This document shows, piece after piece, positions 10,954-48,060 of a stretch of DNA of 64,000 bases. The number at the start of each line of letters is the position of its first letter. Within the stretch, counting starts at the first letter, position 1. The DNA comes from Nitrosomonas sp. Nm34 (GTDB taxonomy: Bacteria; Pseudomonadota; Gammaproteobacteria; Burkholderiales; Nitrosomonadaceae), in the NCBI RefSeq assembly GCF_900113925.1, contig NZ_FORD01000018.1:1-64000 (forward strand), written 5' to 3'. Below the pieces are notes generated by a model that was not told the DNA's origin, ran no database searches, and saw nothing but the letters and a program-made list of their open reading frames with translations. The translations under genes and the position numbers were made by a program.

Positions 10954-11002
10954 TCCTCATCATTTATATCCGTTTTGTATGACATTTCTTAACTTATTAT
11001 AA

Positions 11003-15455: not shown

Positions 15456-16568
15456 TCACTCATGATAGTCAAACACCGCAAAACCATGGCGTTTCACCAG
15501 ATCATCTCGCTCAGCGGACTTCAGGTCTTCCTGCACCATCTCAGACACCAGCTGAGCAAAACTTATGCGTGGCTGCCAACCCAATTTTTCCTTTGCCTTG
15601 GTTGGATCACCTAATAAAGTTTCCACCTCAGTAGGACGGAAATAGCGAGGATCCACTGCTACAATCAGCTTCTCATTCCCTGCCAACATTGAAGAAATCG
15701 AGGGAGAAATCCAATAACCCTTTTCTTTCACCCCTTGCCCTTCCCAGCGAATTTTCATCCCAAGTACATCCGCTGCCGCATTCACAAAATCACGTACACT
15801 GTACTGCACCCCCGTAGCAATCACAAAATCATCCGCTTGATTCTGCTGCAACATCAACCACTGCATTTCTACATAATCTCGTGCATGCCCCCAATCGCGC
15901 TTGGCATCAAGATTCCCCAGATACAAACAATCCTGCAGACCAAGCTTAATTCGTGCCAAAGCGCGCGTAATTTTGCGAGTAACAAATGTTTCACCACGCA
16001 CAGGTGATTCATGATTGAACAGAATACCGTTGCAAGCATACATTCCATATGCCTCACGATAATTAACCGTAATCCAATAAGCATATAACTTAGCTACCGC
16101 ATACGGACTGCGCGGATAAAATGGCGTGGTCTCCTTCTGAGGAATTTCCTGCACCAGGCCATAAAGCTCGGAAGTTGACGCCTGATAAAACCGTGTTTTC
16201 TTTTCCAGTCCGAGAATGCGAATCGCTTCCAAAATTCTCAAAGTACCCAGCGCATCAGAATTGGCAGTATATTCAGGTTCCTCAAATGATACCCCAACAT
16301 GACTCTGTGCCGCCAAATTGTAGATCTCGTCCGGCTGCACTTGCTGGATAATGCGGATCAAACTTGAAGAGTCCGTTAAATCTCCATGGTGGAGGACAAA
16401 TCGACGATTTTCGACATGAGGATCCTGATACAAATGATCAATACGATCGGTATTAAAAAGCGAAGTGCGCCGTTTGATACCATGAACTTCATAACCTCTT
16501 TCTAACAGATATCCTGCCAAATAAGAGCCATCCTGACCAGTAACACCACTAATTAAAGCTTTTTTCAT
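15456..16568 (-). CDS. gmd: GDP-mannose 4,6-dehydratase
   Basis: Makes GDP-4-keto-6-deoxy-D-mannose, the first committed step to GDP-fucose or GDP-rhamnose. It has 370 residues. The NADP loop [10 protein letters not shown] begins at 8, RRTS sits at 33-36, the catalytic STSELYG near 131 and YAVAK at 156-160. All key residues are present. It is the first gene of the gmd-fcl-manB operon; 228 bases separate it from fcl. A heavily decayed second copy lies at 29649-30262. Confidence 0.96.
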
Positions 16569-24120: not shown

Positions 24121-25275
24121 TTAATTCTTACAATTAGTTGGAACGGGTGAGGTAACAGGATATAAATATTTTCTTATTGCCTTAATTTGCTCAATCTGTG
24201 CTGGGTCAATATAACCCACATATGGAGTAGGTACACTGGGCCCAGCACTTCCCTCTCTATTAAACCCCAGAGTCCCTACATCAAATGTCAGCGCACCTCC
24301 TTTTGAGGTAACTTGCGCTATATACTCACCTAATTCTTGGTTGGAAAAACGAACTCCACCTGATGACCAAAATCCACCAAGATATGTCCAAGAATGCCAT
24401 TGTGCTCCATCAAGCCAACGATTATTAGGGATCGAGCGGAGGTTTTTGCTTTCACCAGCAATAAAATCAGAATTAAGCGTATAACGATTACTCACTTGTC
24501 CTGGATTAAAGGCAACAAGAGCATTCGGATTCCCCACACGCAAAGCATTAGCAATCATAGTAAACCAGCGCTCACGATTTAGTGATTTTTTATACTGTGG
24601 CACCCCAGCTCCATCTACCCACCAAGCGGCAACTTTATTACCATAGCGCAGTGAATATTCCCTGTAAACAGCGGCAATATTATTAATTAAAGCATCATTA
24701 GGCGGCCATCCACCCATGGTATCCTTTACCATTGAATTAGCTGTCATAAAAATATTGACGTAAAGTATCAATTTGATGTTTTTCTTACCTAGGGCTTTAT
24801 ATAGCTCGAGCGGGATATCTCTACTAGGTGTGTAGTCACTATTACCCACGATAGTATCAAATGTCTCATTAGGAGCCATCATCATCCAATTTTGGTGCTG
24901 TAATGTAAAAATAAACCAAGACGCCCCTGATTCTTCAACTTGATTCGCCACTTTCTGTACTTGAAAGGTATTGGCGACTTCCTCCACACTCTCCTTCTTC
25001 AAAGGAAAATAGTGCGTAGAAAGTCCTATTTTTCCGCGATACATCCAATCTGTCTTGCACAATACTGAATGGTTGACACTCGTTTGTACGTTGGCCTGCT
25101 CTGCCCAAGACAAGTCGGCAGCAGTAAATAACCCGAAATAAAAGATAAGTATGACAGCTAATCCGCGCCAAGATCGCACACTCTTTTCACATATTGCATA
25201 GCGTTTAGATCCGAGTTCTTCTCCCTCTGTCATAATAGAGATATTTGATTTTTCTATCATAAATACACATCTCAA
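24121..25275 (-). CDS. Secreted GH29-like (alpha-L-fucosidase-type) hydrolase
   Basis: Likely exported hydrolase. A hydrophobic signal segment (GLAVILIFYFGLFTAADLSWA) lies at about residues 38-58, so the true start may be an internal Met after position 1. The body resembles the GH29 barrel: GLSTHYFP, SWFIFTLQHQNW, LYVNIFM, AAWWVDG (the nucleophile region), NRWLDGAQWHSWTYLGGFW and GGALTFDVG. GH29 enzymes cleave alpha-fucosides, which fits a locus that makes GDP-fucose. It could trim or release the polymer. It is isolated between two dead IS remnants. The exact catalytic acid cannot be fixed by eye. Confidence 0.65.
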   Translation of the reverse strand: MRCVFMIEKSNISIMTEGEELGSKRYAICEKSVRSWRGLAVILIFYFGLFTAADLSWAEQANVQTSVNHSVLCKTDWMYRGKIGLSTHYFPLKKESVEEVANTFQVQKVANQVEESGASWFIFTLQHQNWMMMAPNETFDTIVGNSDYTPSRDIPLELYKALGKKNIKLILYVNIFMTANSMVKDTMGGWPPNDALINNIAAVYREYSLRYGNKVAAWWVDGAGVPQYKKSLNRERWFTMIANALRVGNPNALVAFNPGQVSNRYTLNSDFIAGESKNLRSIPNNRWLDGAQWHSWTYLGGFWSSGGVRFSNQELGEYIAQVTSKGGALTFDVGTLGFNREGSAGPSVPTPYVGYIDPAQIEQIKAIRKYLYPVTSPVPTNCKN

Positions 25276-25788: not shown

Positions 25789-26639
25789 GGTCTGTTGACA
25801 TTTTACATAGGTAGCCACAGATATCCATACGCTATGGCTACCATACTCTCGTAATTTCGCTTCAGTTTGTCGTATCGTGTTGCTATTGCTCGATACTGCT
25901 TTAGCCGGGCAAAAGCATGCTCCACCAAATGCCGGTATCTATACAAATCCCAATCCATATCTGCATTACCCTTCAACGAGTTGCGCTTGCTCGGTATCAC
26001 AGCTCGAGATCCCTTCTTCATTATCTGTTCCCGTAACCATTCGCTGTCATAGCCCTTGTCCGCAACTATTGCTTTTGCGTCAGGCAACCTGGCAATCAAA
26101 TCAGGTGCGGCAGAACAGTCATTGACTTCTCCGCCGGTGATTTCAAACTCAACTGGTAAGCCATAACCATCGACCCCTAAATGGATCCTGGTGGTATTGC
26201 CTGCACGGCTTTTCCCGATAGCGTGCGATTCTTGACTCGCTGCTCCCGCACTATGTTGATGCGCTTTAACATAACTGCCATCCATAAATCTCCATTCCCA
26301 ATCCGGATCAAGCCAATGCTTTGAAAACATTGAGCCATTTCCTGCTCAATGACCCTGCATTGAATCTTTTATAGATAGAATTCCAGCAGCCGAGCACCCT
26401 GGGCAGATCGCGCCATGGACAGCCAACCCGCATCGATACAGTATGCCTTCTACCGTCATGCGCAGATTGTGCTTGTTATAAATCGCTTCTTGAAGCAGAA
26501 TCTTCTCCAGCTTCGACCAGTACTCATCATTGAGCATCATTCGGGGCATCGCAAACTCGTTTTGTGGGTGGTGTAGGAGCCCTAATATTATGAGTTTGTT
26601 TTTATCTATGAAATACTTATCTTAAAACGTCAACAGACC
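25789..26639 (-). mobile_element. IS5-family (IS427-like) element, 851 bp
   Basis: The ends GGTCTGTTGAC and GTCAACAGACC are inverted. The target CTAA is duplicated at 25785-25788 and 26640-26643. Size and 4-bp target fit the IS427 group of the IS5 family. A fragment of the same element lies at 50717-50850, also beside CTAA. Transposase described separately. Confidence 0.93.
25803..26549 (-). pseudogene. Frameshifted IS427-type transposase
   Basis: The N-terminal part starts at 26549 (MPRMMLNDEYWSKLEKILL). After VEGILYR the conserved sequence MRVGCPWRDLPRVLGCWNSIYKRFNAGSL continues in another frame. It shifts again at about 26300 to WLDPDWEWRFMDGSYVKAHQHS and runs to the end (LVEHAFARLKQYRAIATRYDK). 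One shift could be programmed as in other IS427 relatives, but two make decay more likely. Confidence 0.85.
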
Positions 26640-28530: not shown

Positions 28531-29412
28531 TTAGGTATTATCGGCAAGATATCCATATCCAAACTGACGAAGTATATTTTCGTTCTTAATTAAAAATCTT
28601 GTTATTGCAGCAGGTGAAAAGAACTCTCGATAATAATAAGCTCCCATCTTATTGAAAAAAATCGCATTATTAGAGGCTTGATCAGTTAAATTTGATTTTC
28701 TTTCTTTAGTGGTTTTATTTACAGAATCTAATGCGCGAGATAAATCAACAGAATTAAAGGTAAAGTATGGAAGTGTTTTCATAAATTCTTCGCTACCTGC
28801 TAAGCAATCTTCATACCGAATTGAGATTCCCTTACCTTCATTGGCCGCATTAATCCATGAAAGAGTGTTCTCAAACCAAGATCCACTCATATTATTAAGA
28901 GTTTCAATATTCAATTGACTATCTGAGAAAGCATCTAATGCATGATCTAAATTCGCAGTTGGTATGTCCTCCAGTTTAATATTTCGCCAAGTATCACATT
29001 CAATGTAATGATTATAACCAAGCATATGGTAAAAAATAATATCCTTATAATTTTTTTCGTTAAATCGATAAGAATACTCAAGACGAGTGAAATTTAAATA
29101 AGAAAGCAAGACATCAAAAGGATTACGGTAAATATGAATAAATCCAACCATATTAAAACCATTGTCATGATGAGGGGGAGCTACACCAATTAGAGCATGT
29201 GTCTTCAAGACGGAGCATGGCTTAATGGTAACATTTGGATTTACGCACTCACAAATCGGAAAATTTTTTCCTTCCTTACTTAACATATAGTAATCAAGAG
29301 TACTCTCTGGAAATCCATAGTTTATCCCAGCATTTTGGATTACTGAACAAACCCAGGTATTTCCCGATTTTGGATAAGAAGCGATCCAAATCACATCTCT
29401 TAATTCATTCAC
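28531..29412 (-). CDS. PAPS-dependent sulfotransferase
   Basis: Moves a sulfuryl group from PAPS to a hydroxyl, probably on a glycan. It has the 5'-phosphosulfate loop ASYPKSGNTW (11-20). The 3'-phosphate site is in HIYRNPFDVLLSYLNF, and the C-terminal RYEDCLAGSEEFMKTL block is present. It is 293 residues long, normal for the Sulfotransfer_1 family, and has no membrane segment, so it acts in the cytoplasm. It pairs functionally with CysC at 4068-4715, which supplies PAPS. Codon and base use are AT-rich like its flanks. Confidence 0.9.
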   Translation of the reverse strand: MNELRDVIWIASYPKSGNTWVCSVIQNAGINYGFPESTLDYYMLSKEGKNFPICECVNPNVTIKPCSVLKTHALIGVAPPHHDNGFNMVGFIHIYRNPFDVLLSYLNFTRLEYSYRFNEKNYKDIIFYHMLGYNHYIECDTWRNIKLEDIPTANLDHALDAFSDSQLNIETLNNMSGSWFENTLSWINAANEGKGISIRYEDCLAGSEEFMKTLPYFTFNSVDLSRALDSVNKTTKERKSNLTDQASNNAIFFNKMGAYYYREFFSPAAITRFLIKNENILRQFGYGYLADNT

Positions 29413-33780: not shown

Positions 33781-35148
33781 TCATTCTTCTATTTTTTCAT
33801 ACCAATCATCCCATTGCTGCTCAGTACATCGATAGCCTTGCTGCTCCAGCAGAGCACGAATATCGGCACGCCTTTGTGTAAAGTTATGCTCGATTGTTAG
33901 CAAACGGATATGCCATCGATCAAATGGAAAATTTTCAAGGATTTCAAATTCGCTGCCTTCCGTATCAATACTCAGATAATCAATTTCACGCGGGGCATTA
34001 TGTTGCTCCAGAAAATCATTGAGTGAGGTGGCGGTGAAAGTGAGCATCCTGCCAACGTTACGATACGCTGCGCGTTTATCGGCGTGTTGATCATCATCGG
34101 CATATTCCTGGCTACCACCATAGGCATCAGCGAGAATAAATTCGACCTGTTTCCCTGTTATGCCTCCAATATATGCATCAGATATTGTGCATTGGCGGTT
34201 TTGTTTGAGTTTAAGAAAAAACTTGGGATTGGGTTCTACACAAATACCCTGCCAGCCGAATTCTTTTTCCAACAGCCAGCTATTGCTGAGCAGTACTCCA
34301 TCAGTAGCACCAAATTCTACGAAGTAGCCGTTGCGCTTATATTTAGTTTTTTCCAACACCCAGAGATCCTGCCCAAGTTGTGAGACAGATTTTTTCTTGA
34401 GGGTATCAAGGCATAAGGAAGCGCCTTCGACGAATGCTGGTGTAATCTCAGCCGATGAAGTATGAATCATCTTTTGTTGCGCAAGTGATAACTCACTGTG
34501 AAGCAGTTCGAGTTCAGTTTCAAATATCTTCAGATGGGATGTTTCAAGGAAAGAAGCGCGCTTCATGGCACGTAATTCTTCATCCATCAGACGTGCAGCT
34601 TGGGGCAGTAGTCCGAGCTTCGCTGTCTCGCGGATGATCCGGGTTTGACCCAGCAACCGTACGTCAGACTGGGGCATTACGATGGCAATGGATGTCTCGA
34701 AATGCTGGATAGCGCGCTGCTCCTGCTTACCAGCGACAGCGGCACGGCCTAGCGTGTTATACACGCTGGCAATCAGGACCTGGCTAACTATTTTCTTGCT
34801 GCATCCCCATTCCTGCGCCAGACTGGTGAATTGACGAGCAGATTGAGTATCGCCTTGCTGCATATGACCCGCGGCGGCCAATAACGCAAGCTTAGCTCGG
34901 TCCGGATGATGTTGCAAAGTGTCATTATTGAGTTTAACGAGATTAGCCCAGTCGCCAAACTGCCATTGAGTACGTGCACGCTCTAGCAGGTTTTCATCAT
35001 AAGGAATGACAGGACGAATGGTGGATTGCTCATCCATATGAATAGTTTCGGTGTCTTTCTGGGTATTTTCCACTGGCGTGGCGGAGCTATCGGTCTGGGT
35101 GGAACTACTGAGCCAACGAATAATAAATGTGCGAAGATTGAAAAGCAT
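33781..35148 (-). CDS. FkbM-family methyltransferase with TPR-like N-terminus
   Basis: SAM-dependent methyltransferase, probably for a sugar hydroxyl. Residues about 235-440 match FkbM: SQLGQDLWVLE, GYFVEFGATDGVLLSNSWLLEK (the SAM loop), GICVEPNPKFF and DYLSIDTEGSEFEIL. Residues about 45-175 are helical repeats of TPR type (AKLALLAAAGHMQQGDTQSAR, RAIQHFETSIAI), likely for protein contacts. The start lies 20 bases after the stop of the 961-residue protein, so it is in the same operon as the coiled-coil proteins. Confidence 0.88.
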   Translation of the reverse strand: MLFNLRTFIIRWLSSSTQTDSSATPVENTQKDTETIHMDEQSTIRPVIPYDENLLERARTQWQFGDWANLVKLNNDTLQHHPDRAKLALLAAAGHMQQGDTQSARQFTSLAQEWGCSKKIVSQVLIASVYNTLGRAAVAGKQEQRAIQHFETSIAIVMPQSDVRLLGQTRIIRETAKLGLLPQAARLMDEELRAMKRASFLETSHLKIFETELELLHSELSLAQQKMIHTSSAEITPAFVEGASLCLDTLKKKSVSQLGQDLWVLEKTKYKRNGYFVEFGATDGVLLSNSWLLEKEFGWQGICVEPNPKFFLKLKQNRQCTISDAYIGGITGKQVEFILADAYGGSQEYADDDQHADKRAAYRNVGRMLTFTATSLNDFLEQHNAPREIDYLSIDTEGSEFEILENFPFDRWHIRLLTIEHNFTQRRADIRALLEQQGYRCTEQQWDDWYEKIEE

Positions 35149-35168: not shown

Positions 35169-38054
35169 TTACAGTCCAGGCTCTCGGAGTAAAACATCCT
35201 TAAGCTGCTCCAGCTCGGCCTTATGTTGACTGATCATTTTGCTTTGTTCAGCTTGTGTCTGGGTCAAGGTGTCGATCTGCGTCCAGCGTTGATGGGTTAA
35301 CCTATTTTGTTCTTCGCATGCCTTACTCAGCACCGTCATTTCCTGTTTCAGCACTTCGTATTGTGCCGTTAAGGTTAATTTTTCCTGAATCAGCGCTTCT
35401 TTAGCAGCCTTCAGCGCAATATATTTCTGAGTCAGGGTATCAATCTCCATTTTATGTTGATCTGCCAACACGCGTTGTTTGTTACGCCCTTTGTTGAGAA
35501 TTGCCACCTCCTTTTTAAGCGCCCTATTCTTTGTCATCAATACTGATTTTTCTTGAACCAGTTCTTTTATATCCGTTTTTAGGGCGAGATTGATCTGAGT
35601 CAGGGTGTCAATCTGCGTCTTATGTTGATCCGCTAACATTCTTAGCTCATCATGGGCTTTAATAAGTGTTGTTACTTCTTGTTTGGACGCTTCATGCTGC
35701 GCCATCAGCTCTGATTTTTCCTGACTAGAGTTTGTAGTTGAGTGGACAAGTGCTAAGATTTCTTGGTCAAGCGTATCCAGCTGTGTAGCCTGCTCCGGTT
35801 TTTCCTCAATCAGACAAGCACTCTTGGCATAGAACTTTTCTAAATACTTATCGCTAACACCTGCAAGCCAGAATAGATGTTTGCCAAGCTCAGGGTGAAT
35901 GCGGAGTTTTTTTATCGACGCCTCCACTATCGCTTCCTGCTTTCCGACAATCACTAAATTGGCATGGCTGCCTTCACTCCAAAGTAACTCAAAAGCCGCG
36001 GGCATTTGAGTTCGTCCTTTATGCGATTCAGTAGTACCAACTAACAGGAGCGAAAGCCATGTTTTCAATGCTTCGGCCATTTGATCCGCATCGATGGTCG
36101 TGCCTAAAGCAGGTGCAGAATCTTCGATACCTGATCCTTGATGGAGCCAGCTCAAAACAAAAGGTTGCTCGCGCTTCGAGCCGAAGACCTGTAACCATTC
36201 ATATAATTGGTCAGCCACAGCACGTGAAATACATATTGCGCCATCAAAACAAAGGATAGTCTTGAGTCCCCATTGATGTATCGCCTCAGCATCGTCCAAA
36301 AAAATCTGTGGTAACAAAATAGGCGATAAATCATAGATTACAAAATAAATCTTGATACCCCGTTGATTCAAACTTAGCAAATAGTTTTTTTGCGCTGACA
36401 CAACCACTGATTGCAAATCCAATCCCAGGAATATATCTCCCTCCCAGGAATTAACCGGCATATCTTCAGCCCAACTATCATTAATCTCCAGAAATTGGCT
36501 TGCAAATCGATGAGCATAACAGTAGCCATTAGTGTCTTTTGTTGCGTAAACAGGTTCAATCGTCCATCCTTCAGGAGGGTTACGCAGGAGTTCCCTAAGA
36601 AGCGCATGGAGAACGTGCTGAATACCGCTTTCCGCATCATGCTGAACGAGTTCACTGATATCCAGCAGTAATTGCTTACGATGAGGTCGAGGTGGAAAAT
36701 TGTTCACTGATTGGGATGAATGACGCGACCATTCATCTAAAGATAAACCTGGATCGGTATCGGCATCAGCAATTGCATCAACTAATGCCGGTAGCTCTGC
36801 TGATGTCTTATTATAGCGGGTTGCCTTATTGTAAAAATCTTCAATAGCCTGAGTATACAGTTTGGCACAGTGCCGTGGCTGATGAAAATTGCAGATCACT
36901 TCTCTGGCATGTTTCCCTAAAGTATTGCGGCGACCAGAATCATGCCACAGCGTTGTTAGTGCCTCAATAAGTTGATCATCGGCAAACTTATCAGGCAACA
37001 TCCACACGGCATTTACCGGCAGATCTGCCATCGAACCATGGGCATTGACGATGGTAGCCAACCCGTAATTCATACAATCTAACACTGTGCCCGAAGTTTC
37101 ACCACGCGATAAATCACGTAATTGAACACCTATGTCGGCAGCAGCCAGCCAGGTTCGATAAAGCTCCCTCTCTGCCCAGCCGGTAATCTCAATACGATCC
37201 GCTGACAGACTACTGTGCCAGGTACGCACCAATTTATTGCCATACTCTCCGCCATAATTCTCACCGACGAAAACCAGGCGGCAGTGGAGATCACTTGCCA
37301 ATGGTGAGGCCAGCCAGGCTGATAGTAATTTATGATTAAGCTTATGGGGCCCTAGAAATCCGAAACTACAGATGACCAAGTCATTTTCTGCTAGCCCAAG
37401 CTTTAGCCGTGCGGCATAACGAATAGCTTTCCGGTCAACATTTAATAAAGGTACACGCAGGTGTGGAACTTTTACCCAATTATCCTCAAATCCTTCACCA
37501 TACCACTCTTTCGCCAGTCTCCGAGAGTATTCCGCATGGACGATCACTCCCAAGGCTTGTTCTAAAATTTCCAAATTGCAGGGATACGCCCAAACAACAT
37601 CAGCTGGATCTTTTGCCAGGTAGCGCTCCTGAAGGGCTCGCCAACCATGCGCATAAGCAAGCGCTTTGGCCCAACTATGCGGCTTGAACCCGTGGACATC
37701 CAAATGCGCAACAACTCCCGAAAGAAAAAAGTCATGCAATACTACTACACCTGGAAATTCAGGAAGCAGGTCAAACATATGAATGTGAAACAGAGAATTG
37801 CCAAAGTGATACAACACTCGATCGAAGCGAGAAGCATGCTGCCGAAACCATGCAACATCACGTATTGGACAATGGGATCGAACCCAATCATCCGACACTT
37901 CTGATTGCATAACAATAACTTCTATCTCGTAGTGTTGAGCCAATTCCGGGAGCAGTTCTGCGCTGTAATCACTAATACCGCTCTGTTCTGGTGGTAGAGG
38001 AGAAATATAGGCTAAACGTGGGCGCTTTTGCATTGCCTCTAAATCTTGCATCAC
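35169..38054 (-). CDS. Glycosyltransferase fused to a long coiled coil (961 residues)
   Basis: Residues about 12-420 form a complete GT4-type domain (LAYISPLPPEQSGISDYSAELL, FGFLGPHKLNHKLLSAWL, RGETSGTVLDCMNYG). Residues about 460-765 look like the first part of a second GT-B enzyme (LLLDISELV, YFVIYDLSPILLPQIF, LLLVGTTESHKGR). This one stops where the donor-binding half should continue (FWLAGVSDKYLEKFYAKSACL). Residues about 775-955 are a coiled coil with 56-residue repeats, including the pair starting TQIDTLTQINLAL and MEIDTLTQKYIAL. It ends in KDVLLREPGL, the same tail as the 971-residue protein. No signal peptide. It probably works on the inner face of the membrane. Confidence 0.85.
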   Translation of the reverse strand: MMQDLEAMQKRPRLAYISPLPPEQSGISDYSAELLPELAQHYEIEVIVMQSEVSDDWVRSHCPIRDVAWFRQHASRFDRVLYHFGNSLFHIHMFDLLPEFPGVVVLHDFFLSGVVAHLDVHGFKPHSWAKALAYAHGWRALQERYLAKDPADVVWAYPCNLEILEQALGVIVHAEYSRRLAKEWYGEGFEDNWVKVPHLRVPLLNVDRKAIRYAARLKLGLAENDLVICSFGFLGPHKLNHKLLSAWLASPLASDLHCRLVFVGENYGGEYGNKLVRTWHSSLSADRIEITGWAERELYRTWLAAADIGVQLRDLSRGETSGTVLDCMNYGLATIVNAHGSMADLPVNAVWMLPDKFADDQLIEALTTLWHDSGRRNTLGKHAREVICNFHQPRHCAKLYTQAIEDFYNKATRYNKTSAELPALVDAIADADTDPGLSLDEWSRHSSQSVNNFPPRPHRKQLLLDISELVQHDAESGIQHVLHALLRELLRNPPEGWTIEPVYATKDTNGYCYAHRFASQFLEINDSWAEDMPVNSWEGDIFLGLDLQSVVVSAQKNYLLSLNQRGIKIYFVIYDLSPILLPQIFLDDAEAIHQWGLKTILCFDGAICISRAVADQLYEWLQVFGSKREQPFVLSWLHQGSGIEDSAPALGTTIDADQMAEALKTWLSLLLVGTTESHKGRTQMPAAFELLWSEGSHANLVIVGKQEAIVEASIKKLRIHPELGKHLFWLAGVSDKYLEKFYAKSACLIEEKPEQATQLDTLDQEILALVHSTTNSSQEKSELMAQHEASKQEVTTLIKAHDELRMLADQHKTQIDTLTQINLALKTDIKELVQEKSVLMTKNRALKKEVAILNKGRNKQRVLADQHKMEIDTLTQKYIALKAAKEALIQEKLTLTAQYEVLKQEMTVLSKACEEQNRLTHQRWTQIDTLTQTQAEQSKMISQHKAELEQLKDVLLREPGL

Positions 38055-38060
38055 TGAAGA

Positions 38061-38213
38061 TTAATTATGTTCAGAATGGCGCACTTCCTTGGCACCTTCT
38101 GCCTCAGGCGTAATCTTCCCTACGGCTGCGCCAATCATAACTATCGCCGCAGGCTTACCAAACCATTGTTTTAAGTAAGTATTAAAGGTGGATTTAGCGG
38201 TATTTTTTGACAT
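38061..38213 (-). CDS. Small protein of 50 residues
   Basis: Unrecognised. It starts two bases after the stop of the 971-residue protein and ends seven bases before the start of the 961-residue protein, filling the gap exactly. It begins MSKNTAKSTFNTYLKQWFGK, then a short hydrophobic stretch (AAIVMIGAAVG) and a polar end with HSEHN. Its position inside the operon with no spare bases supports a real gene. There is no clear ribosome-binding site, so translation would be coupled. Confidence 0.5.
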   Translation of the reverse strand: MSKNTAKSTFNTYLKQWFGKPAAIVMIGAAVGKITPEAEGAKEVRHSEHN

Positions 38214-38215
38214 AC

Positions 38216-41131
38216 TTACAATCCAGGCTCTCTAAGTAACACATCTTTAATGAGCTCGATTTGTGCCTCGGCTTTGATCATTTCTTCGTTAATTAGATGT
38301 TGCCGAGTATTGTTTTCGGCAAGCTCCGACTCCAATTGAGTAATACGTACACTCGATTGCCGTAATTTTAATTGAAGTTGCTCAAGCTCAGTTTTGTATT
38401 GAGCAACCAGCTTGGTTTGCTCAGCTTGGTCTTGGGTCAAGATATCTATTTGCGCCAAACGCTGATGAGCTAATGTACCTTGTTCATCACAGACTCTGTT
38501 AAGCTTTGTCACTTCCTGTTTTATCGCATCAAACTGAGCCGATAATTTCAGTCTTTCCTGAATCAGTGCTTCTTTTTCAGCTTTTAGCGCGACGTTATTC
38601 CGAGTCAGCGTATCAATTTGTTTCTTTCGTTGATCTGCTAGCGCGCGCTGTTCGTTACGTGCCTTATTGAGAGCTGTCACCTCCTGTTTAAGCGTCTTTT
38701 TCTGTGCCGTCAGTGCGGATTTTTCCTTAATCAAAGCTTCTTTATCAGCTTTCAGGGCAATATCAGTTTGTGTAAAAGTATTGATTTGAGCTTGCAGCTG
38801 CGTCGCTTGGTTGGCATGACTATCTCGCTCTTGTGCGAGTACTTCAAGCTGCTCTTGGCGTTGATTCGCTAATGCACTTTGTTCATCGCGTGCCTTCCTA
38901 AGCGCTACTATCTCTTGTTTAAGCGCCTCCTGCTGTCTCGCTAGCACTGATTTCTCCTGAGCTATTGCTTTCTTTTCATCATTCAATGAATTATTTGTTT
39001 GTGTTAAGGTAACAATTTGAGTTTGCAGTTGCATTGCTTGGTTGGCATGACTATCACGCTCATGCATTAGCGCCTCGGTTTGTGCCTTGTGTTGATTAGC
39101 TAATGCACTTTGTTCGTCACGTGCTTTGCTCAGTGCTGCCACTTCTTGCTGCAGTGCCTCGTACCGCGCTGCTAATAATGTTCTCTCCTGGTCTATTGTC
39201 TTCTTATCAGCATCCAGGGCAATATTAGTTTGTGTCAAGGCATCGATCTGCGTCTGCCGTTGGTCCGCTAACGCACTTTGTTCATAGTGCGCCATGCTAA
39301 GCACGCTCATCTCCTGCTTCAAAGCATCATGCTGAGCGGCTAGTTCTAATTTTTCCTTGGTGATTGTCCCCTTATCAGTTTCCAAAGCAATATTGGCTTG
39401 CTTTAAGGTATTGATCTGTGCATGTAACTTCGCCGCCTGGCTGGCATGACTATCACGCTCTTGCGTCAATGATTGATTAGCTAATATACTTTGTTCATCG
39501 AATGCCTTGCTAAGCGTTGCCACTTCTTGCTTCAGAGTATCACGTTGAGTTGCTAGTACTATTTTTTCCTGAGTTATTTCCTCCTTTTCAGCTTTCAAAG
39601 TAACATTAGTTTGCGTCAAAGTATCAATCTGCGTCTGCAACTGTGTCGCTTGGCTATTATGCCTGTCGCATTGTTGTGTCAGTGCTTCGATTTGTACTTT
39701 ACGTTGATTAGCTAATGCACTTTGTTCGTCACGTGCTTTGCTTAGCACTGCCACTTCCTGTTTCAGTATTTCATACTGAGTTGCCAGAGCTGATTTTTCC
39801 TGCACTAATGCTTCAATCTGCGCAAGATATTGACTGATTAATTCATTTTGTTCATCGCGTGCTTGGCTTAGCGCTGTCGTTTCCTGCTTCAGCGCCTCGT
39901 ACTGTGCAACCAATATTGATTTTTCCAGAGCTAATGCTTCTGCACCATCATTTAACGCAATATTGGCCTGACCCAAAGTGTCGATCTGCGCTTGTCGCTC
40001 CGCTGATTGGCTGGCATGTTTGACGCATTCTTGCGTTAATGCTTCAATCTGCACAAGATGCTGACTTACTAATTCGTTTTGTTCATCACGTGCTTGGCTT
40101 AGCGCTGCAACTTCCTGTTGCAGCGCCTTGTACTGCGCTGTCAATGCTGATTTCTCCTGAGCTAATGCTTCCGCATCAGCATTCAGCGCAATATTGGCCT
40201 GACCCAAAGTGTCAATCTGTGCTTGTCGCTCCGCTGCTTGGCTGGCATAACTATTGCGCTCCTGTGTCAATGATTCGATCTGCACCAGGTGGATATCGAC
40301 TAACGCCTCTTGCTCTTCATATGCCTTGCTAAGTGCTGCTACATCCTGATTCAATGCCTCCTGCTGTCTCACTAGTGCTAATACTTCATCAGTTAGAATA
40401 GCATTCGCCTTACCAAGCGTTTCAGTTCGAGAATGCAATATCCTTTTCCAGCTCCGGGCGAAAAGTGCGTAACCGATCGCAGGGTGGTTGCTTTCCGTGA
40501 TTTCGACACACTGGAAACCTAGTGGCTGAAGATAGGTTTCGATACTTTGCAGCGCCGCGTCTTCTTCGATTTCGGCAGCAGGATGAAGCAGTACGCGAAG
40601 TTTGAGCACATTCCACTGCTCGATGTATATACCGGCGCCTCTGAGGATGGGCAAAGCAGGAAGGCAATCGACAAATACCCAGATCGAGTCGGCTTGTGCA
40701 AATGTACTACCGATATCTTCAGCCAGGAGATGATCAAGACGCCGGGAAGGACAAACACTTTGATCTGTTGTATGTAGATTAGGCCAGAGACTGCTCAAAC
40801 GCTGTGGAGAAATGAGACCATCTTCTTCAGGGTTGCTCGCCTGGTAGTAGTCAATCTCACCTTCATTTTCGGAAAGAACTGCACTAATAGCGTACCAACT
40901 AGGATTCTCGGCAATTAATGGTCGTGCCCACTCGAGGCGGTCTTCGTTTGCATCAATGAGGAGAGCATGGGATACATCCCATTGTCTCCATTGATGCATT
41001 TCCCCATAGCCATCCCCTGCACCAATATGAATGATCGCTTGCGGTGGCGCAAGCTTTTGCAACACACAAAGTGAGCTCAGTGACTTTTTAACGATCGTTG
41101 GTCGTTGTTTGATATTGGGTGAATATATCAT
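38216..41131 (-). CDS. Methyltransferase-like domain fused to a very long modular coiled coil (971 residues)
   Basis: Residues about 20-230 resemble a SAM-binding FkbM-type domain (AIIHIGAGDGYGE, ALLIDANEDRLEWA, WVFVDCLPALPI), but the catalytic fit is loose. Residues about 245-965 form a continuous coiled coil. It is built from units of 77 residues (four clear copies), 56 residues (two) and 42 residues (one), all exact multiples of seven. A consensus unit runs AQIEALTQERDSHASQ, then QIDTLTQTNIAL, EKSALAAQYEALKQEV and ALSKARDEQSALANQ. It ends with KDVLLREPGL. The start overlaps the previous gene by 4 bases. The layout recalls WbdD, whose methyltransferase-kinase plus coiled coil measures O-antigen length. 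Confidence 0.82.
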   Translation of the reverse strand: MIYSPNIKQRPTIVKKSLSSLCVLQKLAPPQAIIHIGAGDGYGEMHQWRQWDVSHALLIDANEDRLEWARPLIAENPSWYAISAVLSENEGEIDYYQASNPEEDGLISPQRLSSLWPNLHTTDQSVCPSRRLDHLLAEDIGSTFAQADSIWVFVDCLPALPILRGAGIYIEQWNVLKLRVLLHPAAEIEEDAALQSIETYLQPLGFQCVEITESNHPAIGYALFARSWKRILHSRTETLGKANAILTDEVLALVRQQEALNQDVAALSKAYEEQEALVDIHLVQIESLTQERNSYASQAAERQAQIDTLGQANIALNADAEALAQEKSALTAQYKALQQEVAALSQARDEQNELVSQHLVQIEALTQECVKHASQSAERQAQIDTLGQANIALNDGAEALALEKSILVAQYEALKQETTALSQARDEQNELISQYLAQIEALVQEKSALATQYEILKQEVAVLSKARDEQSALANQRKVQIEALTQQCDRHNSQATQLQTQIDTLTQTNVTLKAEKEEITQEKIVLATQRDTLKQEVATLSKAFDEQSILANQSLTQERDSHASQAAKLHAQINTLKQANIALETDKGTITKEKLELAAQHDALKQEMSVLSMAHYEQSALADQRQTQIDALTQTNIALDADKKTIDQERTLLAARYEALQQEVAALSKARDEQSALANQHKAQTEALMHERDSHANQAMQLQTQIVTLTQTNNSLNDEKKAIAQEKSVLARQQEALKQEIVALRKARDEQSALANQRQEQLEVLAQERDSHANQATQLQAQINTFTQTDIALKADKEALIKEKSALTAQKKTLKQEVTALNKARNEQRALADQRKKQIDTLTRNNVALKAEKEALIQERLKLSAQFDAIKQEVTKLNRVCDEQGTLAHQRLAQIDILTQDQAEQTKLVAQYKTELEQLQLKLRQSSVRITQLESELAENNTRQHLINEEMIKAEAQIELIKDVLLREPGL
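38400..40400 (-). repeat. In-frame coiled-coil repeats (231, 168 and 126 bp units)
   Basis: The coding DNA of the 971-residue protein repeats with the protein units of 77, 56 and 42 residues. The best conserved copies are around 39850-40310 (two consecutive 77-residue units) and 38640-39120. Recombination between units could change coil length. Confidence 0.8.
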
Positions 41132-44100
41132 TTTTGGACTCTGCGTCTTTTTGTACCTGAAGCAGATTTAGCAGCACTCGTCTTTAATGCAGTTTGAGTT
41201 GATGATTTTTCGGAGGGCTTAACCACAGAAAGCAGCTCCTGAGTTTGCTTGGGTTCTTCCGGGGATGAAGCACTCGTTGACGGTGCCGTGGACTTAATAG
41301 AAGCAACGGACATTGGTACCGCTGGCACTGGTGTTGGCACCAGAGATACAGTAGTACGCATTGCGAAGATACGCTGTATTTCGGTGGCCAATTTGCTCCA
41401 TTCCGCCCACGGCCTTTGGAGCTTCCCATCCGAATTTTTCACCGTGTCAAGAATAAATGGTAAACATTTGATCAGTGCGGCAAGAAAGGTACGGTCGTGT
41501 TCCGTCAGGCGCCACCAGATAGCCATATCCATGGCATCAGGCTGTGCAAAACGCAACTCGAGCTTGGTCCCAAAATCATCATATGATTCTACGAACCAGG
41601 CATTGAACGGAACCTGACCACCTTCTTCTGGAAATTCCAGCCTGGGATGAGCACCAAACTGATTTGGCTGAACATCCGCACAGGCGATACGAAATTCAAA
41701 TTCAGGCCAGCCTTTGCCGTGGAATGAAAAATTATCAAAATGTAACCACAAATGTTCATAGCCAAGTGTAGTATGCACACTCTTGAGTTGAACTTGATCA
41801 TAGCGCACTGTTGCCGGGAACTTCTTAAGAATCTGCATAAACTTTTCCAGTCCGCTGCGAAATGCTTCAGCCTGAATATCAGTATATTCCTTAATAAAAT
41901 CAGGGGAAGCAAGTTTTTCAATCAATAATGCAGTAAGGGCTTGGATTAAATTCCAGTCACTAGTAGTCAGTTCAAATGAAGTTTCGATGAACTTCTCAGT
42001 GGACATTCTTTCCCCGACAGGCATAAGAATGAGTTCATTATGATGTCTGGCTGAAGCGGGCCAGCGAGTAAAGAGAGAAATACTTTCTGACGAACGGGTG
42101 AATATTATTCCTGCAATACCTTGTTCAAGCGGTGTTCTGAATTCAAGAGTGGGGAGTAGATGCCCAGCAATAAACAAATTAGTTAATTGCCATGTTATTG
42201 CTTTATCTTCACCGAGTAAAGCGGGTAGAATTTTGATTGTCTCATAATCCAGATAAGCAGGATTGCGCTGTAACAAGCGTTGCCATCGAGCTTCAGCTAT
42301 TTGGAGACGATCAAGTGTTTCCTCTTGTTGCTGTCGGAAGGATTGCTCGCTTTCCAGTTGAGCTTGATGGAGTTGAAGCAACAAAAGTTCATTATTTTCT
42401 GTCTGATTTTTATCAAGTTGCTCAAGCTGAGATACAATTGCTGAATTCTGCTGGGCTAGTGCTTCATTGTTGGTTTTCAGAACCGCATTTGCTTGAGTTA
42501 AGGAGTCAATATGAGCTTGTTTTTCGGCCACATGGCTAGTGTGCTCTTGAGTGAGCGCTTCAATCTGAGCCTGGAGTTGATTCGCAAGCTCACTTTGTTC
42601 ATCGTGAAGTCTGTTGAGCATCACGACTTCCTGCTTCAGCGCCCAAAACTGTGCCATCACTGTTGATGTTTCTTTAATCTGCGCTTCTTTGTCATTTTTC
42701 AGAGCAGCATTGACCTGATTCAAAGATTCGATCCGTGCTTGCTGTTCTATTACTTGATTAGCATAGCTGTCACGCTCTTGTTTTAATACTTCAATCTGTT
42801 CTTGGCGATTGGTCGCAAGCGCATTCTGTTCATCACGCGCCTTACTTAGCGCTGCTACTCCTAGTTTCAGCTCTTCCTGCTGTGCGAGTATCGTTGATTT
42901 CTCTTTCACCAGAGTTTCCTGTTCAGTTTTCAGAGCAACATTCGCTTGAGCCAAAGAGTCGATTCGAGCTTGTCGCTCCGCTGCTTGGTTAACGTGCGTA
43001 TCACGCTCTTGAGTCAGTGTCTCAATTGCTTAACAATTGATTTTTGTTCTTCACACATATTGCTAAGCATCGTCACTTCCTGCTTCAGTGCTTCCTGCTG
43101 TGCTGCCATCACCGTTTTTTCCTGCAGCAACGCTTCCTGTTCAGCTCCCAGCGCAGCATTAGTCTGGATCAAGGAGTTGATCTGTGCTTGCTGGGATTCA
43201 TGTTTTACGAAAGCTGCCTCAAGTTCCCCCTGCATCTGGCGTGACTGCTGAAGCAAGAGTTCAATTTCCCGAGTAGCTTCGTTAAATATATCCTCGTTAT
43301 CCTTCTGCTTTTGTGTATAGCTCGCTAGAGTTTGTTCGAAGCTGATCCTGAGATTTGCAAGCTCTTCTTCAACAGCTTGAATTTGTCGCAATTCGGCAGA
43401 TCGATCGCATAGGGCACGGTAACCAGCAATAATTTGCGTGGGTCCGAGGGTACTCGTTTTGTTAGTTTGATCTCCATTACTGAGGTGTGTGAGCGTAGCT
43501 GCAAGTTCATGATGCAAACTAGTGACTTGAGGATAGTCCTGGCACAACTGATGAGCCAGATAAATAGCTAAGGGATCAGTTGTTACCTCGAACTGGATTG
43601 AATCAAATGAGGTAGTGAGCGGAAGCTTCCATTGTTCAGTGCAGTGTTTGACTAAATTTTCCGGATAACTGATGCACTCATTAAAATCAACCAGCAAGCT
43701 ACGTTGTGGATTGCGGAGGTGAAAACGTAATAATTCCTGATGATATGCCTGCCAGGTATTCATCACCATTTCGACAGAAAGAGTCTCTGTTTCAGTCGCC
43801 ATGACACTCGCAAGCATTTGTTGTGGTGAGATACAAACGAGGATGAAATTGAGGTGGGGCTCAAAGCCAAGCCAATAGTCGAGAAGCCAGGTGCTGTAGG
43901 TATCAGACCAACCCCATATTCTTGATTTGATGTTGGCAACAAAAATATCGCTTGCGAGTTGTTCCCAGAGTCTGCCAGGATTAGCGATCGATTGCGCACT
44001 GCCGAAATCTTCCATTGTCAGGGCCATGACTTGCTCATGCCAGAATCTTATGTCAACAGAATTGTCATTCTTAACTGGCTTTGACTCCTTCATGCCGGCT

Positions 44101-44168
44101 TGATGCAGAATATTGGCAACGATTTGTAAATTGGATTGAACTGCCCCGGTGATACAGATACTTTTCAT
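41128..44168 (-). pseudogene. Sulfotransferase-like / coiled-coil protein split by a frameshift
   Basis: Two neighbouring reading frames (44168 to 43014, and 42954 to 41128) look like one protein of about 1,010 residues. The first ends in a coiled coil at EEQKSIVKQ and then reads out of frame to a stop. In the other frame the coil continues at once with IETLTQERDTHVNQAAERQARIDSL, joining the second frame before its apparent ATG. The first part (about 1-225) resembles a degenerate sulfotransferase (ITGAVQSN at the P-loop site; SLLVDFNECISYPENLVKHC). The second has a 77-residue coil unit, then an unrecognised domain (about 235-545) and a Ser/Pro/Lys-rich tail ending KRRRVQK. It may be a real mutation, a programmed shift or a sequencing error. 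Confidence 0.75.
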
Positions 44169-44204: not shown

Positions 44205-44307
44205 ATTCCAATTCTAAATCAAGACTTACTTTATCGATTTTTCCTTGCCATATTGTTCAACCTGCCTGCAGCACGCCTTCTCGTCATTTTAAATTGGAAA
44301 TAGAATT
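44205..44307. repeat. MITE-like palindromic element, copy 2
   Basis: The left end ATTCCAATTCTAAATCAAG and the right end TTTTAAATTGGAAATAGAAT are imperfect inverses. It fills the gap between manC and the sulfotransferase-like fusion, and its right edge overlaps the manC stop codon (44306-44308). It may act as a transcriptional hairpin at the end of manC. Confidence 0.75.
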
Positions 44308-45745
44308 AGCTGGTACGGCCGTAATTGTCTTCAAACCTTACGATATCGTCTTCTCCAAGGTATGAACCGGATTGAACCTCAATTAAATGCAAAGGGATTT
44401 TTCCCGGGTTTTCCAGCCGATGAACGTGGCCGAGCGAGATATAGGTTGATTGGTTTTCAGTGAGCAGAATTTCCTTGCCATCGACTGTGACCTTGGCGGT
44501 GCCGCTGACCACAATCCAGTGTTCTGCACGATGGTGATGCATCTGTAGCGAGAGTTTTTCTCCTGGTTTCACCATAATGCGCTTGACCTGAAAGCGTTCT
44601 CCTTGATCGATACCTTCGTACCAACCCCAGGGGCGATGCACGCGAGGGTGTTCCAGGTGTTCCTTCCGATCGTTTATTTTACAGTGCTGCACAGCATTCT
44701 TGATGAGCTGGGCTTTGCTCTTATGCATCACCAGCACAGCATCAGCCGTTTCGATGACCACAACGTCTTCAAGACCTATCACGGAAACCAAGCGATTTTC
44801 GGTGCGGATGTAGCTATTTTTGGTATCAGCAAGGTAGACATCGCCACTGGTAACGTTGCCGTTCTTATCCTTAGGCGCAATCCCCCAGAGGGAATCCCAG
44901 GAACCAACATCGCTCCAACCAAATTGTGCGGGCACCACTGCGGCTTGCTCGGTGTTTTGCATCACCGCATAATCAATGGAATCCGAAGGGCAAGCAAAAA
45001 ATGCACTCTCACAGGGACGGATAAAGCCAATATCTGCTGTTCTCTCCTGCCAGGCTTTTTGTACGGCAGCGAATATATCCAGCCGGTGCCGCCGCAATTC
45101 TTGCAGATAACGTTTAGCCGTAAAAACGAACATGCCGCTATTCCAGCTGTAGCCACCTTCCTTCAGATAAGCCTCTGCGGTTGCACGATCAGGTTTTTCG
45201 TAAAAAGATTGCACCCGGCAGGGGTTAAGCGAAGTCGATGTCGTAAGCGAGATCGCTTCTCCCGCCTTAATGTAGCCATAACCTGTTTCCGGCGCGTGCG
45301 GCACTACGCCAAAGGTGACAAGATAATCTTCCTGGGCGGCTTGTACTGCCGTGTTCACGGCTTCTGCAAAGGCAGCTTGATCTTCGATGACATGATCAGC
45401 TGGCAAAACGAGCATCATGGCATTTTCATCCGTTTGCGCAAGATGGAGTGCGGCCAGTGCAATGGCTGGGGCAGTATTGCGTCCGACCGATTCAAGATAA
45501 ATTGCCGCTGGGGTGATGTCGATTGCCTCACATTGCTCTCTGATCAGAAAGCGATGCTCTGAATTACATACTAATATAGGGGCCTGTGTTCGGGGCAAGC
45601 TGATTGCTCGAGCAAGCGTGGCTTGCAGCATGGTTTCTTTATCCACCAGCGACAGCAGTTGTTTGGGATAAGCAGCACGGGAAAGTGGCCATAGTCGAGT
45701 ACCACTACCACCAGAAAGGATAACGGGGTGAATGTATGTTTGCAT
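44306..45745 (-). CDS. manC: Mannose-1-phosphate guanylyltransferase / mannose-6-phosphate isomerase
   Basis: Bifunctional type II enzyme of 479 residues. Residues about 5-290 are the nucleotidyltransferase that makes GDP-mannose: LSGGSGTRLWPLSRAAYPKQ is the activator/GTP loop, and LVLPADHVI and FYEKPD follow. Residues about 350-475 are the cupin-type isomerase that makes mannose-6-phosphate from fructose-6-phosphate (PWGWYEGID, KPGEKLSLQMHHHRAEHW, YISLGHVHRLENPG). With manB, gmd and fcl it gives all steps to GDP-L-fucose. It heads the minus-strand gene run that contains the coiled-coil proteins. Confidence 0.96.
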   Translation of the reverse strand: MQTYIHPVILSGGSGTRLWPLSRAAYPKQLLSLVDKETMLQATLARAISLPRTQAPILVCNSEHRFLIREQCEAIDITPAAIYLESVGRNTAPAIALAALHLAQTDENAMMLVLPADHVIEDQAAFAEAVNTAVQAAQEDYLVTFGVVPHAPETGYGYIKAGEAISLTTSTSLNPCRVQSFYEKPDRATAEAYLKEGGYSWNSGMFVFTAKRYLQELRRHRLDIFAAVQKAWQERTADIGFIRPCESAFFACPSDSIDYAVMQNTEQAAVVPAQFGWSDVGSWDSLWGIAPKDKNGNVTSGDVYLADTKNSYIRTENRLVSVIGLEDVVVIETADAVLVMHKSKAQLIKNAVQHCKINDRKEHLEHPRVHRPWGWYEGIDQGERFQVKRIMVKPGEKLSLQMHHHRAEHWIVVSGTAKVTVDGKEILLTENQSTYISLGHVHRLENPGKIPLHLIEVQSGSYLGEDDIVRFEDNYGRTS

Positions 45746-47063: not shown

Positions 47064-48060
47064 ACCTGAGTTCGGGATAAGCTTTCAAGCTTTGGCCAAG
47101 CTATTGACCCTGGTCAGGTTCAAGGCTGGCTTGTTATCGGACAAACAGTAAGCCACGATGCCAGCCATCAGATTGACGAGGAAATTGAAAAGGGAGCGAT
47201 GGCGGGTGTGCTCGATCTGGCAAAGATTCTTCAATCCGTCGAAGATCGTCTCGATCAGGGAACGGCGGCGTAGAATGATTTTTTCGAACTCGGTACGAGG
47301 CACAGGCTTCATGTTTTTCTTAAGGGTAGTGATGAGTTGAAGGTCTTGCCGGGCCAGTGTCGAAGTCAAGCCAATGGGCGATATAGTCCTTATCGGCGAA
47401 CAACTGGCCGAACAGTCCTTGGCAGAGGTTGGGCATGGGCTGACGGTCATCCACATTGCCGGGAGTGAGCTGGAGGCGGATCAGCTCACCCTTGGAGTTG
47501 ATAATGGCGTGGAGCTTGAATCCATAGAACCAACCCATCGAGGTCTTGCCACGCTGGGCGCTGTCTGCGAAGACTCGATGGCGGGCGATGCGCCGGTTAT
47601 CACAAACAGCGATCGGGGTGGCGTCGGCAATGGAAATCCCGTCGCATTGGCCTTTGAGTACCTCGAACAAGGCTGCCAAGGGAGCTGCACAGCGGGGCAG
47701 GAGTTCCACACATCGTTGATAGCTCGGCAGCTTCGGAAACTCAGTCCGCAAGTAGCGGCACACGTAGACCAGGTAAAAACTCTTGAACTGGCGAAAGCGC
47801 AACTGATGGAATAAAACGGTCAGAGTCATCAACTCCGACAAGCTTAACTGGCTTCAGCGTTTGCGCTTTTTTGCTCCTGTTTCCAGAAGACGGTGCTCTA
47901 AAGTGGGTTCAAACAGGCGGCAGAAATCATCCATAAGGCAAAAAAGTTCGGTTAAACTGTCCATGGGCGTCTCCCGGATGCGATTAATTTATGTGTGGGA
48001 ACATAATTTTACGCAAAAAAGCAGGCGCTCACTCTCACTCTTCTTATCCCGAACTCAGGT
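47064..48060 (-). mobile_element. IS982-family element, 997 bp
   Basis: The ends ACCTGAGTTCGGGATAAG and CTTATCCCGAACTCAGGT are perfect inverses. The 7-bp target TATTCTA is duplicated at 47057-47063 and 48061-48067. The ends starting with AC and the target size fit IS982. It lies inside the ATPase pseudogene. Confidence 0.94.
47085..47965 (-). pseudogene. Broken IS982 transposase
   Basis: Starts at about 47952 (MDSLTELFCLMDDFCRLFEP). There is an in-frame TGA after KKRKR, where Trp is expected before SQLSLSELMTLT. The DDE region follows (ADATPIAVCDNRRI, GWFYGFKLHAIIN, GNVDDRQPM). The frame shifts near 47350, after which LITTLKKNMK, RRRSLIETIFDGLKN and RHRSLFNFLVNLMAGIVAYCL complete the protein. 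Inactive as it stands. Confidence 0.9.

Follow-up and report, generated by a model that had tools for sequence, protein, structure and literature searches.

A coiled-coil protein with a conserved tail and its genomic partner as a candidate scaffold for glycan-modifying enzymes in Nitrosomonas sp. Nm34

The stretch of DNA analyzed here, called the window, comprises 64,000 nucleotides of Nitrosomonas sp. Nm34 (RefSeq assembly GCF_900113925.1, contig NZ_FORD01000018.1, positions 1 to 64,000 of the forward strand), which take up almost the whole of a 65,151-bp contig in a genome of 3.80 Mb. It carries, on the minus strand and in order of transcription, four genes that we call C, B, A and D (Table 1). 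An earlier note had described three neighboring genes here, each joining an enzyme domain to a long coiled coil, and had suggested that they may act as several coordinated rulers of polysaccharide length or as a scaffold; the three genes (A, B and C) are present, but C is split between two reading frames and A is a chimera. B consists of an enzyme-fold head, a very long coil and a strongly conserved tail, and this tail co-occurs across genomes with D, a gene whose conserved module is joined to varying enzymes. We propose, with about even confidence, that B and D, often together with C, form a coil-and-dock scaffold for glycan-modifying enzymes, C being broken in this genome and A a by-product of recombination. 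The start codon of B lies within the 3' end of C (an ATGA overlap), an arrangement also found in L018, L022, L030, L037 and L039. Of the matches seen, Nitrosomonas communis Nm44 (L039/L059) is the nearest, with identities of 89% in the head of B, 84% in the head of C and 96% in the adjacent ManC-type protein.

The head of B (971 aa) is predicted to adopt the class I S-adenosylmethionine (SAM) methyltransferase fold. Its AlphaFold model (pLDDT 85.7, 15 sequences used) gave 535 Foldseek matches in the PDB at E<=0.001. Of the 50 matches listed, almost every one is described as a methyltransferase, the others (such as OvoA, AzeJ and RdmB) presumably sharing the fold, and the TM-scores of these 50 are modest (0.35-0.46 by query length). 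The SAM glycine motif IGAGxG is kept in the window's head, is altered in L014, L030 and L037 and is shortened in L021. By sequence, the head appears at best a distant relative of FkbM methyltransferases: PF05050 matches five of 15 B heads, weakly (best E 0.0011), and the window's head is not among them, falling below the PF05050 cut-off and having no Pfam match of its own. A profile of the 15 heads searched against the PDB found nothing stronger than E=0.12, to a methyltransferase.

The coil of B is very long and built of heptads. The longest proline-free run covers 751 residues (aa 218-968), against 484 in N. communis B, and no proline precedes the tail in any of 18 B-homologue coils; over the whole coil, hydrophobic periodicity peaks at 3.495-3.555 residues in all 18 (p at the floor of 500 shuffles). 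When the window's B is matched to itself, all 25 strong offsets (z>6, not mutually independent) equal 0 or 1 modulo 7, the leading one being 77 residues, or 11 heptads; Tandem Repeats Finder reports a 231-bp DNA unit with 71% and 85% matches, and the 1-modulo-7 class is consistent with a phase shift of one residue around residue 340 of the coil. A first local periodicity test, which used 42-residue windows and treated alanine as hydrophobic, came out negative, with p<0.05 in just 1 of 92 windows; with the residue set changed to I/L/V/M and the windows to 84 residues after that result, 72 of 86 were positive, against 1 of 23 in the head, and both results stand. Coiled coils rise 0.1485 nm per residue, which gives about 105 nm for a coil of 711 residues. 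The earlier figure of about 720 residues is correct for B alone and not for A, whose longest proline-free run is 205 aa, or for C, whose coil measures about 141 + 256 aa and is interrupted by the frame change. A search for homologues with different coil lengths, which the earlier note had recommended, was rewarded: the coil after the head ranges from about 119 to 731 residues among the 18 homologues, the window's being the longest, with head and tail kept throughout.

Much of this could be explained if the coils of B and C merely clustered glycan enzymes, perhaps by co-assembling, while their length drifted by repeat duplication and measured nothing. The window and N. communis orthologues of B, with heads 89% identical, are 971 and 704 aa long; repeats are common to the coils of B and C (39% identity between window B and N. 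communis C over 719 positions); and the C heads lack Lys/Arg before the loop in 13 of 13 cases, as described below. The strict register of the window's B and the 18 of 18 coils without proline before the tail would speak for a more exacting role, although a mere rod also fits both, and we regard such a passive scaffold as rather doubtful.

The best conserved part of B is its tail. In an alignment of 30 sequences (A3), E-22, Q-15, L-12, I-11 and K-10 are invariant in all 30, every one of them outside the pattern used to find the family, and the window's B keeps them all. Codons vary at these residues, so that constraint acts on the protein, and conservation of the tail merely as DNA was rejected on this ground.

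The family was collected from the genome_contigs collection with a DNA pattern for D-x-LLREPGL-stop, which by a hand estimate should occur about 7 times in random sequence. It found 34 stretches, 29 of which are the ends of coil open reading frames (ORFs); the other five (L010, L019, L024, L033 and L034, with frames of 11-90 aa and no coil ORF) were dropped. We take the 29, from their titles, to be Beta- and Gammaproteobacteria, one being titled merely Proteobacteria; a contig labelled as a Bordetella metagenome-assembled genome (MAG; L029) was used for the tail and the D module alone. The pattern was not found in viral contigs. Protein searches with whole B and with the B head in 40 relatives (24 of the same genus), and a search for exact LLREPGL-stop in 60, found nothing beyond the window's own genome, to which the tail profile later added one genome of the same genus (G535).

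What precedes the tail differs between members. Besides the methyltransferase-fold heads (alignment A1), tail proteins carry a sulfotransferase-like head with an SGT loop (L081) or a different head (L083), and some are headless, consisting of a coil of QLHQVQEELE type alone (L013, L084, L091, L094) or a variant of it (L093). D adjoins all of these other-headed and headless proteins except that of L091. Because D pairs with headless coils, the coil or tail, and not the head, would be its partner. The motif LLLLQLHQ(VQEELE) recurs in the coils of C2, the second frame of gene C, and of the headless tail proteins L084, L091 and L094. At L081 a single gene (8104-9753) encodes the sulfotransferase-like head, with a loop that by reading looks intact, followed by coil and B-type tail, with the D module adjoining; the same genome has a second tail protein, L082.

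D is matched in 28 of 30 genomes, the window's own included, and lies in the tail's own locus in 26 of 29 cases (for L023, D was visible in the longer stretch L061). It follows B at once or after a short gap, and the module of the D genes beside the tail is 43-65% identical. Genomes drawn independently, by taxonomy, were searched as well. In 369 genomes of the class, the tail profile and the D profile match the identical four, own genome included; without it, both match the same 3 of 368, with a hypergeometric probability of about 1.2e-7 (computed by hand, taking as independent genomes that in the class and order draws are not fully so). In 399 genomes of the order, each profile matches five, four of them shared, own genome included. 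One genome with D and no tail at threshold (G716) has a tail-like end (GQIEMIKDFVMFAK) directly preceding D.

The partner module of D (VPYDENLLERARTQWQFGDW...) is 43-60% identical to the window's in a 25-sequence alignment (A4) with 26 invariant columns, and what follows it varies. The window's D ends in a clear FkbM methyltransferase (PF05050, 71.2 bits against a cut-off of 22.7, E=1.6e-19), the family with which the head of B shares the general methyltransferase fold. Matches above the Pfam cut-off assign FkbM also to L059, L062 and L063 and Methyltransf_23 to L065; below it lie Sulfotransfer_3 in L060 (26.9 vs 27 bits) and Methyltransf_24 in L061 and L066, while L068, L070 and L071 have a stretch without a family and L064 and L067 little sequence at all. 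Across most of its length the window's D shares 61-63% identity with the D of a Tepidiphilus and of a Methylococcaceae genome, but just 43% (module) with that of N. communis.

Gene C is split into C1 (384 aa) and C2 (608 aa), which lie in different frames with the junction at about 43014-43044, whereas N. communis C is a single ORF of 1198 aa with a longest proline-free run of 578; the change of frame could be a sequencing or assembly error or a mutation. The earlier description of its head as sulfotransferase-like was borne out: the AlphaFold model (pLDDT 81.6, 13 sequences used) has sulfotransferases at Foldseek ranks 1-16 (best E 3.5e-6), followed by P-loop kinases, although none of 13 C heads has a Pfam sulfotransferase match. 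In sulfotransferases that use 3'-phosphoadenosine 5'-phosphosulfate (PAPS), a Lys or Arg precedes the SG(T) of the PAPS loop. The C heads share the fold of these enzymes but lack Lys/Arg before the loop serine in 13 of 13 cases, the window's loop reading GAVQSNLQ; an active sulfotransferase is therefore unlikely, and the head is, judging by its residues, likely inactive as such. The C-terminal domain of C2 also occurs in N. communis, Nitrosomonas MAG_42, Azomonas, Azotobacter and L082. Hydrophobic periods near 3.5 are found in the C1 and C2 coils and in that of A (p 0.004-0.006).

Gene A (961 aa, its frame open throughout) begins, as claimed earlier, with a GT4 glycosyltransferase (GT) and half of a second. 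The first is matched by PF00534 (aa 218-385, 61.3 bits against a cut-off of 26.4, E=1.1e-16) and the second GT4 is cut near aa 752. The GT part has strong matches in four of 19 other genomes (Azomonas, Azotobacter, Modicisalibacter and P. capeferrum, with frames of 868-1397 aa) and a fifth, marginal one (E=5.9e-4); alignments end at aa 751-757, and the relatives' frames continue for 92-127 aa more, a portion that presumably holds the donor site. Three of the four strong relatives are adjoined by Wzt-like genes, and the fourth has an ABC2_membrane match just past the analyzed stretch. The rest of A is a B-type coil with 48% identity to the coil of the window's B over 217 aligned positions and 52% to the N. 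communis coil over 223, which upholds the claim of related repeats; these values are too close to tell which copy was the source. The tail is cut to its last ten residues, and the A3 profile, run on the window's genome, matched the B tail alone and not the end of A. Between B and A, the 119 nt past the B stop are 73% identical to the start of N. communis D (E=4.7e-17), and in N. communis D directly follows B. By its alignments A is a recombination chimera, and the simplest history would be that a segment ending in coil, tail and D displaced the resident D. No protein joining GT and coil, with or without the tail, was seen among the frames listed for the 29 tail loci, several of which are cut at contig ends. 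In Klebsiella pneumoniae, O12 WbbB and O7 ORF6 combine ruler and polymerase (PMC11231755, from excerpts), and like A have glycosyltransferase and coil in a single chain; unlike them, A has a truncated second GT and a coil that is a recombined B-type end.

With A a hybrid that lacks most of the tail, and C frame-broken with a loop devoid of Lys/Arg, a designed set of three coordinated rulers is not supported, and the idea of three rulers working in parallel was rejected. The same facts raise the question whether the module as a whole is non-functional here, A being a dead recombinant, C broken and the large coils relics. The two frames of C, the D remnant ahead of A and the stop of A's second GT short of its presumed donor-site part would all agree with partial decay. 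B and D are open, however, B has every invariant tail residue, the 961 codons of A are still an open frame, and the break in C may be an artifact, so that we judge decay of the locus distinctly unlikely.

The genomic context of the family was judged at 23 loci, chosen by us for flank length and not a random sample: 14 found by the tail pattern (L018, L059-L068, L070, L071, L090), the window, and eight from the class and order draws (G103, G338, G453, G491, G535, G712, G716, G718). Kps-type exporter genes lie near 13 of them, eight being tail-pattern loci (L018, L061, L062, L063, L065, L066 with KpsT and KpsE, L071 and L090) and five of the eight draws: G453 (KpsT, plus an ABC2_membrane match some 11 kb away from its tail), G491 (KpsM/T and, by reading, a KpsE-like frame), G535, G712 and G718, where they stand beside D and the coil protein and not beside the tail match.

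This context brings WbdD to mind, the protein of E. coli O9a and K. pneumoniae O3 and O5 that, in excerpts of the published accounts (PMC3482155, PMC11231755, PMC5082667), likewise has a methyltransferase-fold head, a long coil and a post-coil C-terminal region, with an ABC exporter nearby as in many relatives of B. Of the features of WbdD-type terminators, B has, by its predicted fold and its heptads, the N-terminal capping-enzyme fold on a long coiled coil; others are a membrane-associated amphipathic helix at the C-terminus with a site that recruits the polymerase, and a locus for a polysaccharide that depends on an ABC transporter. If B were a true ruler of this kind, its tail would sit at the membrane with the polymerase, its methyltransferase head would do the capping at the opposite end of a coil of some 100 nm, and coil length would set chain length. 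The order of parts is as in WbdD (PMC3482155, PMC11231755, excerpts), Kps genes lie near 13 of 23 loci, coils measured after the head cover a range of about 119 to 731 aa, and the window's head retains IGAGxG. The glycine motif of four other heads is changed, however, FkbM matches only a third of the 15 heads, and weakly, with the rest unmatched, headless proteins still occur with D (L013, L084, L093, L094), and no exporter was found in the window. B also differs from WbdD in having no visible kinase, a weakly conserved head, a tail ending in LLREPGL and a separate partner with varying enzymes. B was set beside WbdD by the published descriptions and by the PDB profile search, where no WbdD chain was among six matches up to E=1. 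According to the excerpted PMC5082667, the WbdD head lies about 20 nm from the membrane, as against about 105 nm for 711 residues here, which makes the window's coil about five times that of WbdD; the same source gives 107 nm for the coil of ROCK2. As far as excerpts of PMC11231755 tell, the terminator of WbdD is distal on the coil, whereas D docked at the tail would likely put the active enzyme at the tail end. This weakens the literal WbdD ruler, which we hold to be unlikely, and favors a scaffold that may still measure.

The coil-and-dock scaffold has difficulties of its own, beginning with that reversed position of the enzyme. D was not found in two MAGs, G064 (the genome with L018) and G086 (the one with L031), the L018 tail lying at base 49 of its stretch; at L027 D is on another contig than the tail; in G535 (L091) the tail comes right after KpsE, without D; and in G718 tail and D are on separate contigs and the D frame holds an internal stop, the gene ahead of that D encoding a coil protein whose end has diverged. 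The tetratricopeptide (TPR) character of the D module consists of sub-threshold Pfam matches, and the Eisenberg moment of the tail (0.10-0.28) is moderate at most, so that a membrane-binding helix is not evident. C, with its head present in 14 of 20 genomes, is less constant than tail and D. Kps genes were not seen beside 10 of the 23 loci: the window, L059 (N. communis), L060 (MAG_42), L064, L067, L068, L070, G103 (with an ABC pair about 14 kb away), G338 and G716 (a short contig). L064, L070 and L082 have genes for an RTX-type protein and GT2 enzymes instead (Pfam confirms the RTX match in L064 alone, and in L070 it is short, 56 aa); the glycan therefore need not be a capsule, and these loci possibly serve glycosylation of a secreted protein. 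With no exporter genes found in the window and a Wzm/Wzt-like pair on another contig of the genome (C57), an ABC-dependent polymer is unproven at the window.

Upstream of C lies a gene for a ManC-type enzyme, in the same position as in N. communis; a phosphomannomutase-type gene and one for adenosine 5'-phosphosulfate (APS) kinase are also in the window, as are, by reading only, GDP-mannose dehydratase-like and GDP-fucose synthase-like genes. We infer that the sugar-nucleotide genes and APS kinase would fit a methylated or sulfated fucose/mannose glycan, and the APS kinase, a PF00685 sulfotransferase and an alpha-L-fucosidase-like protein suggest one that is sulfated and contains fucose. Around the glycan genes lie transposase-like frames, recognized by reading, which agrees with a mosaic locus. 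An aminotransferase and an aldo/keto reductase-like protein, adjoined by a radical SAM gene, have by eye a near-identical stretch of about 110 aa in common (SLPSHFIPGQ...AWVDVRNEGTQRWEPHPPDG), which lies at the N-terminus of one protein and at the C-terminus of the other; and a 224-aa protein resembles the N-terminal part of a WcbI-type protein, the two being apparent related copies.

Table 1. Genes and features of the window (coordinates on the forward strand).
Feature	Coordinates	Strand	Remarks
C	41128..44168	-	split into C1 and C2
C1	43014..44168	-	384 aa
C2	41128..42954	-	608 aa
C head	43434..44168	-	C1 aa 1-245; sulfotransferase fold, degenerate loop; alignment A5 of 13
C1 coil	43014..43433	-	aa 246-384; stop codon where the coil goes on in a different frame
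C2 coil	42280..42954	-	listed TTG start; proline-free open frame extends upstream to ~43029
C2 C-terminal domain	41335..42279	-	no Pfam match
B	38216..41131	-	971 aa
B head	40412..41131	-	aa 1-240; class I SAM methyltransferase fold, distantly FkbM-like
B coil	38357..40411	-	aa 241-925, ~685 residues; proline-free, 77-aa (11-heptad) repeats
B conserved tail	38219..38356	-	aa 926-971, ...RQHLINEEMIKAEAQIELIKDVLLREPGL; 30-sequence alignment A3
D remnant	38096..38214	-	lies between B and A; 5' end of a gene D of communis type
A	35169..38054	-	961 aa
A GT part	35799..38054	-	aa 1-752; GT4 and first half of second GT4; Pfam, alignments
A B-type coil	35169..35798	-	tail cut to last ten residues (KDVLLREPGL); coil alignment
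D	33781..35148	-	partner module aa ~26-190 (34579-35073; weak TPR matches) and FkbM methyltransferase
ManC-type GDP-mannose pyrophosphorylase/isomerase	44306..45745	-	upstream of C
224-aa protein	3205..3879
APS kinase	4068..4715
WcbI-type protein	8587..10164
Transposase-like frames	10369..12181, 25803..26330, 47085..47841		by reading
GDP-fucose synthase-like	14265..15227		by reading only
GDP-mannose dehydratase-like	15456..16568		by reading only
Radical SAM gene	17057..19144
Aminotransferase	19145..21220
Aldo/keto reductase-like protein	21224..23179
Alpha-L-fucosidase-like protein	24121..25275
Sulfotransferase	28531..29412		PF00685

Returning to the coil-and-dock scaffold, we picture B and D, often with C, as a compact module that would assist glycan assembly in the cytoplasm. 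B would form a coiled-coil rod, headed by an enzyme fold and finished by a tail for docking; this tail would bind D physically, through the conserved module of D, and perhaps lie at the membrane near a polymerase; and D would thereby supply the growing chain with a modifying enzyme that differs between loci and is an FkbM methyltransferase in the window. The coil would fix how far the head stands from the docked enzyme, its length serving as a spacer or perhaps a ruler, and would evolve through in-register duplication of 77-residue units. On architecture, the best reading is that the scaffold works like the WbdD-type rulers, though not necessarily as one of them, and an influence of the B coil on chain length is plausible; the ruler or scaffold role once proposed for all three genes may thus survive for B, given its WbdD-like architecture, Kps context and length variation. 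In the window, B and D are intact and C is frame-broken, and A would be the product of a recombination that imported a second segment of GT, coil and D. Topic and peptide-word searches of the literature, with most subscription journals outside their reach, found no description of the tail, the D module or the gene set.

To our knowledge, control of length and end groups in capsules made by ABC exporters is understood in few systems. A bolder possibility, to which we give little credence for the present, is that the LLREPGL tail acts as a plug and the D module as its socket, by which capping enzymes (methyl- or sulfotransferring) are swapped on rulers of exchangeable length. If so, the exchange would extend across capsules and other glycan systems, and the window's B, at about 100 nm, would be among the longest rulers. 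A constant tail and D module combined with variable heads, cargo and coil lengths provide natural variants with which the dependence of polymer length on coil length could be tested, and with them whether capping enzymes are swapped by docking.

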